A DNA stretch of 36,581 nucleotides from an uncultured Clostridia bacterium (lineage in GTDB: Bacteria; Bacillota; Clostridia; Lachnospirales; Lachnospiraceae). How positions within the stretch are numbered: position 1 is the stretch's first letter; the number at the start of each line of letters is the position of its first letter. The position numbers and the translations under genes are program-made. The notes beneath the pieces were generated by a model. The model saw only the letters and a program-made list of their open reading frames with translations, ran no database searches and had not been told where the DNA came from. Below are positions 10,599 through 18,201 of the stretch, piece after piece. The stretch spans positions 1 to 36,581 of the forward strand of contig CAMOCO010000004.1 of NCBI GenBank assembly GCA_946610715.1. The letters are read 5' to 3'.

Positions 10599-11342
10599 TT
10601 ACAGATCAAACCGGACAATCAGTCTATTCTTATCATGTTCATCCTTCAGTATAACTGCTGCATTTTTTGAATTTGCATCATTTGGTATATATATATAAGG
10701 ATATAACGTATCTCCCTTTACCGACTGCATCTTATATTCTGCTCTAAAGCCCTTAAGTGAATCCATTTGAGAGAGAATATCCTCCGGAAGCACACTCATG
10801 GCAATAGCGACATATTGTCCGTTATTTACATGATGATTTGTATCTATATATTGTTCGGTAACCACTATGGGTTCTCCCTTAACCATCTTTGATTCATCCG
10901 AAACAATTATCTTTCCTTTTTCGAATTCTTTATCCAGCGGTTCGGAAATACCGTAAGCCTCTATCTCCTCTTCAGGAATTCTTCGCACCGGAATTCCCGT
11001 TGTCGAATTTACATATGCCCATTCGGAATATGCATATACGAGAAGTTCCCCTGTCTCAGCATTTTCAATGGTAAAATTTCTTATGCCCACAAAATATTTA
11101 AAGCCGGATGCCCAGGTTGACACTTTAATATTCTCACAATACTTCGGGAATCTGTTAACCTTTATCTGCCATGACGTCAACATCCAGACCGTTCCCTGCT
11201 GCTTCAGCCATTTAATCCCCACACCTCTGTCCTCTGATTCAAAGGTGCAGCAGTCCTGAAAATAATTAATTACTGATAATATGCCTGCTTTTTTAGTTTC
11301 CGTAATCTCACTATATCTGACTCTCGTATTGTAATAGTACAT
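10599..11342 (-). CDS. Acyl-ACP thioesterase (FatA/FatB-type)
   Basis: Hot-dog thioesterase features: YSEITETKKAGILSVINYFQDCC, GTVWMLTSWQIKVNRFPKYCE, YIDTNHHVNNGQYV. Confidence 0.88.
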   Translation of the reverse strand: MYYYNTRVRYSEITETKKAGILSVINYFQDCCTFESEDRGVGIKWLKQQGTVWMLTSWQIKVNRFPKYCENIKVSTWASGFKYFVGIRNFTIENAETGELLVYAYSEWAYVNSTTGIPVRRIPEEEIEAYGISEPLDKEFEKGKIIVSDESKMVKGEPIVVTEQYIDTNHHVNNGQYVAIAMSVLPEDILSQMDSLKGFRAEYKMQSVKGDTLYPYIYIPNDANSKNAAVILKDEHDKNRLIVRFDL

Positions 11343-11354
11343 TTTAGTCTGCCC

Positions 11355-11594
11355 CTAGTCTTCCACACCGAGTTCTTTGAGGATCCTGATCATATCCTCC
11401 ACAGTGTTTATTTCTTCATTCAGTTTTTCCGAAGGAATCTCCACGTTGAACTCCTCCTCCAAAATAACCACAAGTTCATATAGATCCAGCGAATCAAGAG
11501 CCAGATCGTCCTTGAAAGATGTATCCTGTGTGATTTCCGTGGATTGAATGGATAGAAAATCCTCAAGTATTTCTACAAATTTATCATATATCAT
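11355..11594 (-). CDS. Acyl carrier protein
   Basis: DLALDSLDLYELVVILEEEFNVEIP phosphopantetheine DSL motif; start chosen at MIYDKFVEILEDF. Confidence 0.9.
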   Translation of the reverse strand: MIYDKFVEILEDFLSIQSTEITQDTSFKDDLALDSLDLYELVVILEEEFNVEIPSEKLNEEINTVEDMIRILKELGVED

Positions 11595-11726
11595 ATTGAA
11601 TCGCCTCCTGATGCTAATATTAAAAATCAAGTTTTACCCAAGGTCATTCTATACAAATGCTAAAAGAGTGTCAAATACTATTCTATGAAAGAAGTAAGAA
11701 CCTATTCAATGAATGAATCAGGAACC

Positions 11727-12554
11727 TTACTGAAGATTTAACTTTTTATTGATTATATAAATATTTGCTATCATCACCGGCAGCAGCATTACTACATGAA
11801 CCAGCAGCACTGTCAGTACTGCCTGAATTTCAATGTTTGAAAGAGTTGTATCAGCACTTCTCATTGCCATTAATGCTATATTGTTATATTTACTCTTCTG
11901 AGAAAAGTATATTGTGATGACTGACATTATAATACCTGCTACTACAGTAATAGCTGACACTGCATACGGAAGTAATCTGCTGTTTGAATTTATAAGATTC
12001 TTGGAAATGCTGATTCCCAGCTTTATCAGCCATATATAGAATAGATAAATGATTACTATTGTTACTACCATTGCCACAAACAGCATAACCACATCAAGCT
12101 TTGATGAACCGGAATGATAATAATCTTTCATGGATGAATCCACATTATGAAAAAATTCTCTTCTCAGGTCATCATTAGTTAAAGTAGACATGAAGTAGAA
12201 GAACACCAGTAATACCCCACCTATTATCACCTGAACTATATCAGCCAGAAAGTCCGCCAGAATATGGGTTGTTCCCTTAACCGGAAGTGTATTCAGCAGA
12301 TATCCCTCATCTCCCAGAAAGGATTTATTGAATCTATTGATAGTCTGGGCAACCAGATAAAATGATGCAGCTGAAATTGCCATAAGAGAAAAAGCTCTTA
12401 CAAAACCGGACAGAAGCTCCCCTACTTCTCCGGCATATTCATTACTGTTATCCACTAGGGAAAAAATTATGCCAATTATAACGATCACTGCTGACACAAT
12501 TAAAATACTTTTCGCCCTGCTCTTCATTTCAAATTTAAATCTTTTTCCTAACAT
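11727..12554 (-). CDS. ABC transporter permease (ABC-2-like)
   Basis: Multi-TM protein; start overlaps the end of the upstream ATPase gene. Confidence 0.8.
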   Translation of the reverse strand: MLGKRFKFEMKSRAKSILIVSAVIVIIGIIFSLVDNSNEYAGEVGELLSGFVRAFSLMAISAASFYLVAQTINRFNKSFLGDEGYLLNTLPVKGTTHILADFLADIVQVIIGGVLLVFFYFMSTLTNDDLRREFFHNVDSSMKDYYHSGSSKLDVVMLFVAMVVTIVIIYLFYIWLIKLGISISKNLINSNSRLLPYAVSAITVVAGIIMSVITIYFSQKSKYNNIALMAMRSADTTLSNIEIQAVLTVLLVHVVMLLPVMIANIYIINKKLNLQ

Positions 12555-13246
12555 CTGAATTCCTCCCTGAATATCTCATCTATGGACATATTTTTCTCTT
12601 CTCTTAATTCATCTGCCGGCTTATGCTTTAGTATCTTTCCTTCTTTAATGAAAATCACATCATCCAGAATATTTTCCACATCCTGTATCAGATGAGTTGA
12701 AATAAGAATGGATGCATCCTTTTCATAATTTGTTATTATTGTACGGATGATATAATCTCTCGCAGCCGGATCCACACCTGCGATGGGCTCATCCAGCAGA
12801 TAAAGCTTTGCCCGTCTTGACATTACCATTATCAGCTGAACCTTCTCCTTAGTTCCCTTGGACATTTTTTTAATCTGCATATCCAGACTTATATCAAGGG
12901 ATTTAAGCATCTCCTCAGCTCTGGCTGCATCAAAATCCTGATAAAAGGTTTTGAATTCCTTTATCACTTCACTGACCTTCTGACTCTCGTTAAAATAAAC
13001 TCTGTCCGGAAGATAGGATACCACAGCTTTGGTTTCATGCCCCACTTTCTTACCATCTATCTGCACATCACCTTTGGAATAGCTGAGAAGCCCTGCCATT
13101 ATTTTTATCAAAGTCGTTTTTCCGCTGCCGTTGGGCCCCAGGAGACCCACGATCTTCCCGGCTTCAATCTCCAGATCAAAATCATTAAAGACCTCTGTTT
13201 TACCATATGACTTATATAAATTCTGTATACTTATCAGATTACTCAT
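12548..13246 (-). CDS. ABC transporter ATP-binding protein
   Basis: Walker A GLLGPNGSGKTT; Walker B LYLLDEP; H-loop STHLIQD. Confidence 0.94.
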   Translation of the reverse strand: MSNLISIQNLYKSYGKTEVFNDFDLEIEAGKIVGLLGPNGSGKTTLIKIMAGLLSYSKGDVQIDGKKVGHETKAVVSYLPDRVYFNESQKVSEVIKEFKTFYQDFDAARAEEMLKSLDISLDMQIKKMSKGTKEKVQLIMVMSRRAKLYLLDEPIAGVDPAARDYIIRTIITNYEKDASILISTHLIQDVENILDDVIFIKEGKILKHKPADELREEKNMSIDEIFREEFRC

Positions 13247-13627
13247 TTAATTACCTCCCGTCTTCTTTGGACTTTTCTTAAGGTAATCCTCAAGCCTCAT
13301 TACCATATCCTCATCGCTGTAACCCAGCTCATACATTTTTTCCGTAAATTTCCTAAGTATATCCTCACAAATATTATTCTTCACAGTGTCATCCACAGAC
13401 TCTGCAACGAATCTGCCTGATGTTCTTTGTGAATAGAGAATACCTTCATTTTCAAGTGTCTGAAGTGCCTTCTGCATAGTATTGGGGTTTACTCCCGCTT
13501 CAATCGCCAGCTCTCTTACTGAAGGTATCTTACTACCCGGGCTGAGTATACCGCCGGCAATATCTCTTTTTATTTTATCCATTATCTGCAGATAAATAGG
13601 CGTATCATTTTCAAACTTCCATGCCAT
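13247..13627 (-). CDS. GntR family regulator (YtrA-like)
   Basis: 126 aa; PIYLQIMDKIKRDIAGGILSPGSKIPSVRELAIEAGVNPNTMQKALQTLENEGIL; short C-terminus; first gene of the ABC operon. Confidence 0.92.
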   Translation of the reverse strand: MAWKFENDTPIYLQIMDKIKRDIAGGILSPGSKIPSVRELAIEAGVNPNTMQKALQTLENEGILYSQRTSGRFVAESVDDTVKNNICEDILRKFTEKMYELGYSDEDMVMRLEDYLKKSPKKTGGN

Positions 13628-13830: not shown

Positions 13831-14733
13831 TTATCTTAAGTACTCACAAGCTGCAATGGCCGCATAAGCGCCATCCGCACAGGCAGTGGTAACCTGCCTC
13901 AGTGTCTTGGCTCTGCAGTCTCCTGCAACGAATACACCGGGTGTCATGGTAATTGTATCATCCTTTGCGTCAAAATAGCCTCTCTGATCCGTGGCAGCCA
14001 CATTTGTAAATGCCTTATTATCCGGCACAAGTCCCACGGCCAGGAATACTCCGTCGCATTCTGCCACACGTTCCTCACCATTTTCCGAATAACGGACTCC
14101 TGTAATACGCCCCTCCTGTACCTCATAGGAGAGCACCTTCGTACCTGTATGAGCTTCAATGTTGGAATGTCCGAACAGCTGATCCTGAAGCTTCTGATCG
14201 GCTGTAAAATAAGGCATATCCTGAAGGATTATCAGCTTGCTTACAATATCAGCCAGCAGGTTTGCCTCTACAAATGCAGAATTACCTCCGCCAACCATCA
14301 CTACTGTCTTATCCCTGTAGAAATCGCCGTCACATACAGCGCAGAAGCTGATGCCATTTCCGATAAGCTCCTCCTCCCCGGGAAGTCCCAGTACCCTGTG
14401 GGTTGTGCCTGTGGCAAGAATGACAGTACGCCCGTCATAGGATCCACCCTCTGCAGTTTTAACTGTAAACCCTTCACCTGTTTTCTCTACTCCGTTAACC
14501 TCCTCAAAGGTCACCTTTGCTCCCTGCTTGATGGCCTGATCCAGAAACTTTTCCGCAAATTCATCTCCGCTGATGGAATCAAATCCCGGAATATTTTCCA
14601 CCTTGGGAGAATTGACTATCTGTCCTCCGAATACACTCTTTTCTATTACAAATACAGACTTTCCGCTGCGCAGTCCGTAAACTGCAGCAGTAAGTCCGGC
14701 AGGACCTCCGCCCACCACTATAATATCATACAT
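13831..14733 (-). CDS. trxB: Thioredoxin reductase-like flavoprotein
   Basis: IIVVGGGPAGLTAAVYGLRSG, CAVCDGDFYRD redox site, VVMVGGGNSAFVEANLL, GVFVAGDCRAKTLRQVTTACADGAYAA. Confidence 0.88.
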   Translation of the reverse strand: MYDIIVVGGGPAGLTAAVYGLRSGKSVFVIEKSVFGGQIVNSPKVENIPGFDSISGDEFAEKFLDQAIKQGAKVTFEEVNGVEKTGEGFTVKTAEGGSYDGRTVILATGTTHRVLGLPGEEELIGNGISFCAVCDGDFYRDKTVVMVGGGNSAFVEANLLADIVSKLIILQDMPYFTADQKLQDQLFGHSNIEAHTGTKVLSYEVQEGRITGVRYSENGEERVAECDGVFLAVGLVPDNKAFTNVAATDQRGYFDAKDDTITMTPGVFVAGDCRAKTLRQVTTACADGAYAAIAACEYLR

Positions 14734-14775: not shown

Positions 14776-14819
14776 GTCAAATAAAAGAGCTCAGAGCCGG
14801 TAATAAATCAGCTCTGAGC
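14776..14819 (-). terminator. Terminator downstream of nrdD
   Basis: Minus: GCTCAGAGC-tgatttattaccg-GCTCTGAGC-TCTTTTATTTG. Confidence 0.75.
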
Positions 14820-14828
14820 CCGGATTAT

Positions 14829-14884: not shown

Positions 14885-17293
14885 TTATACGTTATGTGCC
14901 TTCATCCATTCAACAGCTGCGCTGTCTCCCTCGTATCTGGTTCCGTCCGGATCAATGATAGTCGGAGTCTGAAGAATGTTCAGTTGTCTTGCTATATCCA
15001 TATTCTGTGAGCAATTTACTTCATTATATTCAAGTCCTGCAAGGCGAAATCTCTGTTCTGCACCCTTGCACTTCGGGCAATGGTCCTTAACATACATTGT
15101 AGGTACACCTGATGCGGTATCGGCAGCTGCTGAAGTCTCCGTCTTCTCATCAGCCTTTGATACAGCTGCATTAGTGATTGTCTCCTCTTTCTCAGGTGCG
15201 GCAGGGCCTTCATGAGTCAGTCTGCTGGCAGCTATATTATATTCTACACGATCCTCAAATTCCTGAGCCTTTCCGTCATTCCAGTTCTGAACCGGTCTGT
15301 AATAGCCTGTAATACGGCTGTATACCTCTGTTTTCTCACCGCAATGAGGACATGTATATACTTCACCTACAAGATATCCATGATTTCTGCATACTGAGTA
15401 TGTAGGAGACATTGTATAATACGGAAGTCTGTAATTCTCGGCAATCTTACGAACAAGTGTTGCTGCAGACTTCCAGTCAGGAAGCTTCTCACCGAGGAAT
15501 GCATGGAATACTGTTCCTGATGTATAAAGTGTCTGAAGCTTATCCTGAACATCCAGAGCTGAGAATATATCATCTGTATATCCTACAGGAAGATGTGATG
15601 AATTTGTATAATATGGTGTTCCTTTCATATTAGCTGTAATAATGTCAGGGAACTGCTCTATATCATGCTTTGCAAAACGGTATGTTGTAGACTCTGCAGG
15701 TGTTGCTTCAAGATTGTACAGATCTCCGTACATTTCCTGATAATCCGAAAGTCTCTCTCTCATATGATTGAGAACATCAACAGCAAACTTCTGTGTCTCT
15801 TCATTTGTAAGATCCTTCTTGAGCCACTTTGCATTAAGTCCTACTTCGTTCATTCCGATAAGACCGATGGTTGAAAAATGATTATCAAATGTTCCGAGAT
15901 ATCTCTTTGTATATGGATAAAGTCCTGTCTCAAGAAGCTTTGTGATAACTGTTCTCTTGGTCTTAAGTGATCTGGCTGAAATATCCATAAGACGATCAAG
16001 TCTTGCATAGAAATCAGCTTCATCCTTAGCAAGATATGCAATACGCGGAAGGTTAATGGTAACAACGCCAACCGATCCTGTTGACTCACCGCTTCCGAAG
16101 AATCCGCCTGACTTCTTGCGAAGTTCTCTGAGGTCAAGTCTGAGACGGCAGCACATACTTCTTACATCACTTGGTTCCATATCGGAATTAATATAATTTG
16201 AAAAATACGGAGTTCCATACTTTGCCGTCATCTCGAAGAGAAGTCTGTTGTTCTCTGTATCATCCCAGTTAAAATCTCTGGTAATCGAATATGTAGGAAT
16301 AGGATACTGGAATCCACGTCCGTTGGCATCACCCTCGATCATTATCTCGATAAACGCCTTGTTGACCATATCCATTTCCTTCTGGCAGTCACCATAGGTA
16401 AAGTCAACCTGTTTTCCGCCTATCCAGCACTGCTCATCCTTCATATCTCTCGGAACTGTCCAGTCCAGAGTAATATTTGTGAAAGGTGACTGTGTACCCC
16501 ATCTTGAAGGAGTATTAACACCGAAGATAAAGGACTGGATACATTGCTTAACTTCTTTCTGTGTAAGGTTATCTATCTTGATAAATGGTGCAAGATAAGT
16601 ATCGAATGAAGAAAATGCCTGAGCTCCTGCCCATTCATTCTGCATGATACCAAGGAAGTTAACCATCTGATTGCAGAGTGTTGAAAGATGTCCTGCAGGT
16701 GCAGATGTAATCTTGCCGGGCACTCCGCCGAGGCCTTCCTGGATAAGCTGCTTAAGTGACCATCCTGCACAATAGCCTGTAAGCATGCTGAGGTCATGAA
16801 TATGAATTGCTGCACTTCTGTGTGCATCTGCAATTTCCTGATCATATATTTCGCTGAGCCAGTAATTTGCTGTAATAGCTCCCGAATTTGAAAGGATAAG
16901 TCCGCCTACACTATATGTAACCGTTGAATTCTCTTTAACTCTCCAGTCATTGATCTGAAGATAATTATCAACTATATCCTTATAGTTAAGCATAGCGTTC
17001 TTAACATTACGAACCTTCTCACGCTGCTTTCTGTAAAGGATATAAGCCTTGGCAACATCAGAATATCCTGCTTCCGAAAGAATCTTCTCAACGCTGTCCT
17101 GTATATCTTCTACGGATATTACTTCGTCCTTGATCTTGCTTTCAAAATCACTTGTTACTCTGAGCGCCAGCATATCAACAATGCTTGGATGATACTGCTT
17201 CTCACATCCGATAAACGCTTTTTCAATTGCAGCACTGATTTTGGATACATCAAAATCAACTACTACTCCGTCCCTTTTCATTACGCGGTACAT
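14885..17293 (-). CDS. nrdD: Anaerobic ribonucleoside-triphosphate reductase with fused C-terminal glutaredoxin/NrdH-like domain
   Basis: ATP-cone N-terminus MYRVMKRDGVVVDFDVSKISAAIEKAF; Zn motif CRNHGYL...CPHCGEK; glycyl radical region RITGYYRPVQNWNDGK; C-terminal MYVKDHCPKCKGAEQRFRLAG...NILQTPTIIDPDG. Confidence 0.93.
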   Translation of the reverse strand: MYRVMKRDGVVVDFDVSKISAAIEKAFIGCEKQYHPSIVDMLALRVTSDFESKIKDEVISVEDIQDSVEKILSEAGYSDVAKAYILYRKQREKVRNVKNAMLNYKDIVDNYLQINDWRVKENSTVTYSVGGLILSNSGAITANYWLSEIYDQEIADAHRSAAIHIHDLSMLTGYCAGWSLKQLIQEGLGGVPGKITSAPAGHLSTLCNQMVNFLGIMQNEWAGAQAFSSFDTYLAPFIKIDNLTQKEVKQCIQSFIFGVNTPSRWGTQSPFTNITLDWTVPRDMKDEQCWIGGKQVDFTYGDCQKEMDMVNKAFIEIMIEGDANGRGFQYPIPTYSITRDFNWDDTENNRLLFEMTAKYGTPYFSNYINSDMEPSDVRSMCCRLRLDLRELRKKSGGFFGSGESTGSVGVVTINLPRIAYLAKDEADFYARLDRLMDISARSLKTKRTVITKLLETGLYPYTKRYLGTFDNHFSTIGLIGMNEVGLNAKWLKKDLTNEETQKFAVDVLNHMRERLSDYQEMYGDLYNLEATPAESTTYRFAKHDIEQFPDIITANMKGTPYYTNSSHLPVGYTDDIFSALDVQDKLQTLYTSGTVFHAFLGEKLPDWKSAATLVRKIAENYRLPYYTMSPTYSVCRNHGYLVGEVYTCPHCGEKTEVYSRITGYYRPVQNWNDGKAQEFEDRVEYNIAASRLTHEGPAAPEKEETITNAAVSKADEKTETSAAADTASGVPTMYVKDHCPKCKGAEQRFRLAGLEYNEVNCSQNMDIARQLNILQTPTIIDPDGTRYEGDSAAVEWMKAHNV

Positions 17294-17374
17294 ATGTGGT
17301 TCCTCCCCCAATATTTTAATTATTATTTTTTCGTTACGTGGTATATTCAATAATACCATCAAAATTCGAAATGT

Positions 17375-17416
17375 CAATATCTAGTATTCATTTTTTTATA
17401 AAAACACTAGATATTG
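17375..17416. promoter_or_regulatory. Inverted repeat upstream of nrdD, possible NrdR-type boxes
   Basis: CAATATCTAGTATT (17375-17388) and AACACTAGATATTG (17403-17416), 13/14 complementary; resembles NrdR-box sequences but 28-bp centre spacing is shorter than usual. Confidence 0.45.
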
Positions 17417-17511: not shown

Positions 17512-18201
17512 TTATACACCTCTCAACTCAGCTGTCCCCACATATGGTTGTACAATATGTATATATTCTTTCATCTCTTTTTCGCTTCTCGGTTCAAGTC
17601 CGGCAAAAGGAACTGTCTCCCTGTCCACAAATTGCTGGAGAAAATATCTGTCCGCTCCCCGGATCCACTTTCCTATACCGATAAAACTGTCTTTGTCATG
17701 AAACTGCTTCACCACTGTGGTTCTGAATTCATATTCCACTTTTCCTTCCAGCAGAAATCTTATACTCTCATCAATTTTATCAGTCCCGAATCCCGGTATC
17801 CCTATAGTTTCTCCGTATCTCTCTCTGCAGTTTTTTACATCCATGGCCACATAGTCAATAAGTCTTTCACTTACCAGTCTCTTTAGAACATCAGGATGAT
17901 TTCCGGTCGTATCAAGTTTTATCTTAAAACCCATATCCCGTATTTTCTCTATGAATTCCGGAAGCTCCCGCCTTAATGTCGGCTCGCCGCCGGTTATTAC
18001 CACACCGTCAAGTATACCGGTTCTGGTCTTCAGAAAATCTGTAAGCTCCACATCATCCATAACGGCAGGGGCATTCATATCCAGCAGTTCCGAATTATGG
18101 CAGAATGGGCATCTGAAATCACACCCTCCCAGAAATACAGTACAAGCCACCCTGCCGGGAAAATCAAGCAATGTCATCTTTTGAAGTCCGTGAATTTTCA
18201 T
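17512..18201 (-). CDS. nrdG: Anaerobic RNR activating protein, radical SAM
   Basis: GGCDFRCPFCHNSEL (CxxxCxxC) and VVITGGEPTLRRELPEF. Confidence 0.88.
   Translation of the reverse strand: MKIHGLQKMTLLDFPGRVACTVFLGGCDFRCPFCHNSELLDMNAPAVMDDVELTDFLKTRTGILDGVVITGGEPTLRRELPEFIEKIRDMGFKIKLDTTGNHPDVLKRLVSERLIDYVAMDVKNCRERYGETIGIPGFGTDKIDESIRFLLEGKVEYEFRTTVVKQFHDKDSFIGIGKWIRGADRYFLQQFVDRETVPFAGLEPRSEKEMKEYIHIVQPYVGTAELRGV

Follow-up and report, generated by a model that had tools for sequence, protein, structure and literature searches.

The window analysed here, a stretch of 36,581 nucleotides from an uncultured Clostridia bacterium, encodes a low-Mr thioredoxin reductase in which the HRRxxxR motif is replaced by QDMPYFT. 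This replacement is a clade trait and no local loss, and nearly all the genes that carry it are found beside a class III ribonucleotide reductase (RNR) whose NrdD subunit bears a fused redoxin. On sequence and synteny, we propose that this nrdD-linked clostridial reductase, with Q[DN][LM]xx[FLY]T in place of HRRxxxR, probably prefers NADH and reduces the NrdD-fused redoxin. The host is a gut or rumen bacterium with a variant reductase beside its anaerobic RNR. If the proposal is true, many gut and rumen anaerobes couple their dNTP synthesis to the NADH pool by way of a reductase whose gene adjoins that of an RNR with a built-in redoxin.

Sequence features and family placement

The features considered are the following:

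13831 to 14733, minus strand: trxB-like flavoprotein disulfide reductase, Q-motif variant (300 aa, ATG start; TIGR01292 287.6 bits)
14326 to 14343, minus strand: CAVCDG redox-active disulfide, residues 131-136
14275 to 14292, minus strand: GGGNSA dinucleotide-binding motif, kept, residues 148-153
14203 to 14223, minus strand: QDMPYFT, residues 171-177, replacing HRRxxxR
about 14785 to 14825, minus strand: GC-rich hairpin, then TTTTATTT, between nrdD and trxB (-23.6 kcal/mol, z = -5.1)
14885 to 17377, minus strand: NrdD (class III RNR, ATP-cone, glycyl radical) with a C-terminal NrdH/glutaredoxin-like domain, CPKC (listed start TTG; the true start is probably downstream)
14888 to 15130, minus strand: fused redoxin domain of NrdD (CPKC), probable acceptor for the reductase
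17512 to 18201, minus strand: NrdG2-type radical SAM activase (TIGR02495 212.8 bits, cut-off 131.15)

The initial annotation had reported an intact CAVCDG site, the absence of an HRRxxxR-type motif and a neighbouring NrdD-redoxin fusion, and all three observations hold. Indeed, ILQDMPYFTADQ (Q171, D172, T177) aligns exactly on the HRRxxxR of the Staphylococcus aureus, Streptococcus pyogenes and clostridial NADPH-dependent enzymes (NTRs), and the arginines that bind the 2'-phosphate are lost (R176 to D and R181 to T in E. coli numbering). The dinucleotide-binding motif reads GGGNSAFVEA from residue 148 onward; at position 8 of GGGxxAxE the window reductase has V, a sister subclade Q and canonical NTRs E. 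The protein thus has the CxxC, the FAD domain and the GGGxxA expected of an NADPH-dependent thioredoxin reductase (TrxR) but not the HRRxxxR; in keeping the glycine motif without HRRxxxR it resembles the NADH-type low-Mr TrxRs.

The window protein scores 287.6 bits against the NCBIfam thioredoxin-disulfide reductase profile TIGR01292, under the curated cut-off of 343.45, and the genome has another trxB (contig C113), which adjoins trxA, reads HRREGFR and passes this cut-off with 343.9 bits. The clostridial NADPH TrxRs described by this profile share the fold, the CxxC and the GGGxxA, and they are the nearest kin by tree, including HRR-type copies linked to nrdD; the window reductase differs from them by the replaced 2'-phosphate arginines and the missed cut-off. 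Its AlphaFold2 model (pLDDT 93.2, pTM 0.81), which represents the flavin-reducing form, contains a complete Rossmann NAD domain. The TM-score is 0.93-0.94 against NTR structures in the flavin-reducing form and 0.58 against the ferredoxin-dependent flavin thioredoxin reductase (FFTR) of Gloeobacter, a gap that is partly due to conformation.

Conservation and history of the replaced motif

Relatives were chosen by similarity to the window reductase, from a scan of genome contigs that gave 80 loci (54-80% identity) and from class- and family-wide genome searches. Proteins with the replaced motif (Q-types) numbered 105, and in every one of them it reads Q-[DN]-[LM]-x-x-[FLY]-T-[AG]-[DE], with Q first, T seventh, D (84 proteins) or N (21) in second place and L or M in third. 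Because Q and T are invariant and D/N stands at the first Arg position, the pattern is not due to chance; the invariant Q and T also rule out motif decay. GGGxxA is kept in 105/105 Q-types and the GxxP loop in 104/105. Q-types are present in at least 23 of the 391 sampled genomes of the class, in 12 families, and their records come from Lachnospiraceae, Ruminococcaceae, Erysipelotrichaceae and, once, Coriobacteriia.

In a tree of 98 rows from which the motif columns were left out, a Q-clade of 48 rows (support 93/94) contains all clostridial Q-types plus one HRR-type protein, and lies inside a wider group of 65 rows (88/89) with nearly all HRR-type nrdD-linked copies. The simplest reading is that an HRR-type NTR settled beside nrdD and later swapped its 2'-phosphate site. 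The redoxin fusion appears to predate this change, since NrdDs adjoining an HRR-type trxB also carry the fused redoxin. The single HRR-type member of the Q-clade (L151), itself linked to nrdD, may be a reversion or a misplaced branch, and another nrdD-linked trxB (L172) shows a further variation of the cofactor site, reading GDGNTA and VVTMFDKFFG where the two motifs would stand.

A comparable motif, QNLPYLTA replacing HRRxxxR, is found in the TrxB of Thermosipho africanus (PDB 7jyp), which is the best PDB match and the nearest solved relative by sequence. This protein belongs to another clade: the AU test rejects grouping it with the Q-clade (p 0.0017), which rules out common ancestry of the two motifs, and QNLPYLTA is therefore convergent.

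Genetic context

The Q-type gene lies directly behind nrdD, on the same strand, in 99 of the 105 cases. Among the six others, two are at contig edges where the redoxin end of nrdD is visible (L041, L079), one has nrdD 2.2 kb upstream (L075), two are at a contig edge with no upstream sequence to read (L095, L111), and one has no nrdD seen at the locus (L137). After thinning at 70% identity, 28/31 Q-types and 11/60 HRR-types are linked to nrdD (Fisher p 2e-11), a statistic that partly reflects shared descent. Conversely, no Q-type gene (0/105) stands beside trxA, as against 22/73 HRR-types.

In all 99 linked cases the redoxin is fused to the C-terminus of NrdD, with a CPKC, CPNC or, once, CPIC site. 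The 58 full-length NrdDs of these loci all combine a C-terminal CPKC or CPNC redoxin and the adjacent reductase with the Glu of NxEATPAE, a CC pair and the glycyl-radical RxTGY; the NxEATPAE Glu and the CC features mark the redoxin-type rather than the formate-using class III RNR. The fused domain resembles NrdH weakly (E 0.0013). A literature search on NrdD-redoxin fusions with trxB found no paper directly on this arrangement.

The gap between nrdD and trxB is 30 bases or less in 43 of the 99 linked relatives; the window instead has there a terminator- or attenuator-like hairpin, which counts against the proposal. An Rfam search of the window gave no matches. Directly downstream of trxB (11727-13627, minus strand) lie genes for a short GntR-type regulator, an ABC ATPase and a membrane protein of 275 aa that matches no family, and further on (10599-11630, minus strand) an acyl carrier protein gene adjoins that of a 247-aa protein whose one match, to a thioesterase (MenI), is weak.

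Electron donor

The reading that we favour is that NADH is the donor, because the characterised enzymes that have kept the glycines and lost HRRxxxR are NADH-dependent. AhpF, the peroxiredoxin reductase, which uses NADH, aligns without gaps over the cofactor-specificity region (LLEFAPEMKADQVLQDKL against ILQDMPYFTADQKLQDQL); it differs by its partner, its N-terminal domain and a Glu at the beta2 tip where the window reductase has Gln then Asp. The NADH-type low-Mr TrxRs of Thermotoga maritima, Thermoplasma acidophilum (TaTR) and Desulfovibrio vulgaris (TR3) likewise have a complete NAD domain and no HRRxxxR. NADH use is documented for T. maritima TR and DvTR3 (PMC5627308), the Thermotoga data being those of T. 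maritima and the sequence compared here that of its order-mate Thermosipho. T. acidophilum TR was first called pyridine-nucleotide-independent and was later found to be NADH-dependent (PMC6262447). This enzyme, the second-best PDB match to the NAD domain of the window reductase, reads GGGNSGAI...IIEYMPKYM, with the glycines kept and no acid at position 8, and the glycine motif is also conserved in TR3, as in the Q-types, but has degenerated in TRi, which does not depend on NAD(P)H (PMC5627308). Compared with these enzymes, the Q-motif comes from a separate clostridial lineage and is associated with nrdD and a fused redoxin, not with a stand-alone thioredoxin.

Three features count against NADH: the beta2-tip position that holds an acid in AhpF and TaTR holds Q, with D/N next; the second motif position is N, not D, in 21/105; and position 8 of the glycine motif is V or Q, not E. 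We rate NADH as probable and no higher because D/N stands one residue beyond the beta2 tip; position 8 is not decisive, since T stands there in the NTR of M. mazei, which uses NADPH.

Other donors were weighed against NADH. Continued use of NADPH, or dual use of NADH and NADPH at a rebuilt adenosine site, seems rather unlikely: the Q-clade is nested among HRR-type NTRs, an HRR member lies inside it and a TrxR from the Red Sea works with either nucleotide (PMC6544261), but both phosphate-binding arginines have become D/N and T in every Q-type, and Rossmann enzymes with an acid at the beta2 tip exclude NADP (PMC4777477). We consider distinctly unlikely a dependence on ferredoxin (or flavodoxin), in which the dinucleotide site would be vestigial and FAD reduced by an Fe-S protein. 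This was the inference of the initial annotation, which mentioned the retained GGGNSA and gave it no weight. The loss of HRRxxxR is indeed shared with FFTRs, which are also CxxC flavoproteins and are present elsewhere in this family, in genera other than that of the window (L117-L121, L123, L124; among them, L120 has matches to the solved 6gnc and 6gna with E 1e-86 and 2e-83), position 8 of GGGxxAxE is non-acidic, and a ferredoxin disulfide reductase feeds the class III RNR of Methanosarcina barkeri, according to the title of a work cited in PMC6262447. However, the FFTRs read here have lost both HRRxxxR and GGGxxA (e.g. GYSPREE), lose the GxxP loop as well and have a shortened pseudo-NAD domain, whereas Q-types keep the glycines and, almost always, the loop, have neither a shortened domain nor a C-terminal tail, and carry a new motif whose strict conservation is unlike decay. 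Furthermore, FFTRs adjoin trxA in several of these genomes and make up a 100/100 group of their own that matches 6gna/6gnc and leaves out the window reductase. The long FFTR branch can be joined to the Q-clade at a cost of only 5-7 log units, a grouping that the AU test does not reject (p 0.175 and 0.259). Although GGGxxA, domain length and also the free tree all speak against FFTR membership, its exclusion thus rests more on anatomy than on phylogeny. The initial annotation had also held that clear placement in the NADPH-dependent clade would speak against its inference, and the nesting of the Q-clade among clostridial HRR-type enzymes largely amounts to such a placement. Least probable in our view is that Q[DN][LM]xx[FLY]T marks a non-NAD(P)H donor, e.g. 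ferredoxin, acting on an intact Rossmann domain as a private low-potential supply for the class III RNR. Finally, the DvTRi type, NAD(P)H-independent, with TQ/NGK replacing HRRD and a degenerate glycine motif (PMC5627308), was ruled out for the window reductase, which has GGGNSA and QDMP.

Electron acceptor and proposed pathway

The electron path drawn by the initial annotation stands at its acceptor end and finds no support at its FFTR/ferredoxin end: the NrdD-fused redoxin is the likeliest acceptor because the reductase gene and the NrdD-redoxin fusion are conserved neighbours. It is conceivable, though doubtful, that the enzyme is instead the general thioredoxin reductase of the cell and that its position near nrdD is historical, which would be compatible with NADH as donor. 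Seven genomes that are 91-100% complete and each have a TrxA-like gene (G345, G202, G228, G454, G199, G162, G404) yielded no TrxB homolog (E <= 1e-15) other than a Q-type; for this reason the Q-type may also serve general thioredoxin there, and dedication to NrdD would not be exclusive. Against a general role, the genome of the window has a canonical HRR-type trxB adjoining trxA, no such adjacency was seen for any Q-type, and the basic thioredoxin-contact residue (GRG/GKG) is mostly N, E, S or D in Q-types. In many of them, the contact region that follows is acidic (CDGDF). These altered contact residues are consistent with a changed partner.

With the NrdD-fused redoxin as acceptor, NADH would bind the intact GGGNSA domain and its hydride would pass to FAD and from there to CAVCDG by domain rotation, as is general for TrxRs. 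The CAVCDG dithiol, judging from synteny, would then reduce the CPKC domain of NrdD, which in turn would reduce the active-site disulfide of the same class III RNR, a step that NxEATPAE and the CC pair fit. dNTP synthesis would thereby draw on the fermentative NADH pool.

Consequences for annotation

Loss of HRRxxxR alone does not mean that a TrxB is ferredoxin-dependent, and GGGxxA has to be checked too. A published survey classed every TrxB that does not carry both NAD(P)H motifs as 'non-NTR, probably FFTR' (PMC10880999), and surveys using a definition of this type could misfile the Q-clade. Other variants were met among the TrxB homologs collected. Four of them (L210, L211, L212, L122) have neither GGGxxA nor HRR and are distinct from 6gna-type FFTRs. 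Two longer TrxB-like proteins, L114 and L125 (about 536 and 597 aa), carry no HRR pair where the motif is expected. In L114 this site is VREEDF, and a redoxin-like stretch closes the protein, which resembles the AhpF-homolog family TIGR03143.
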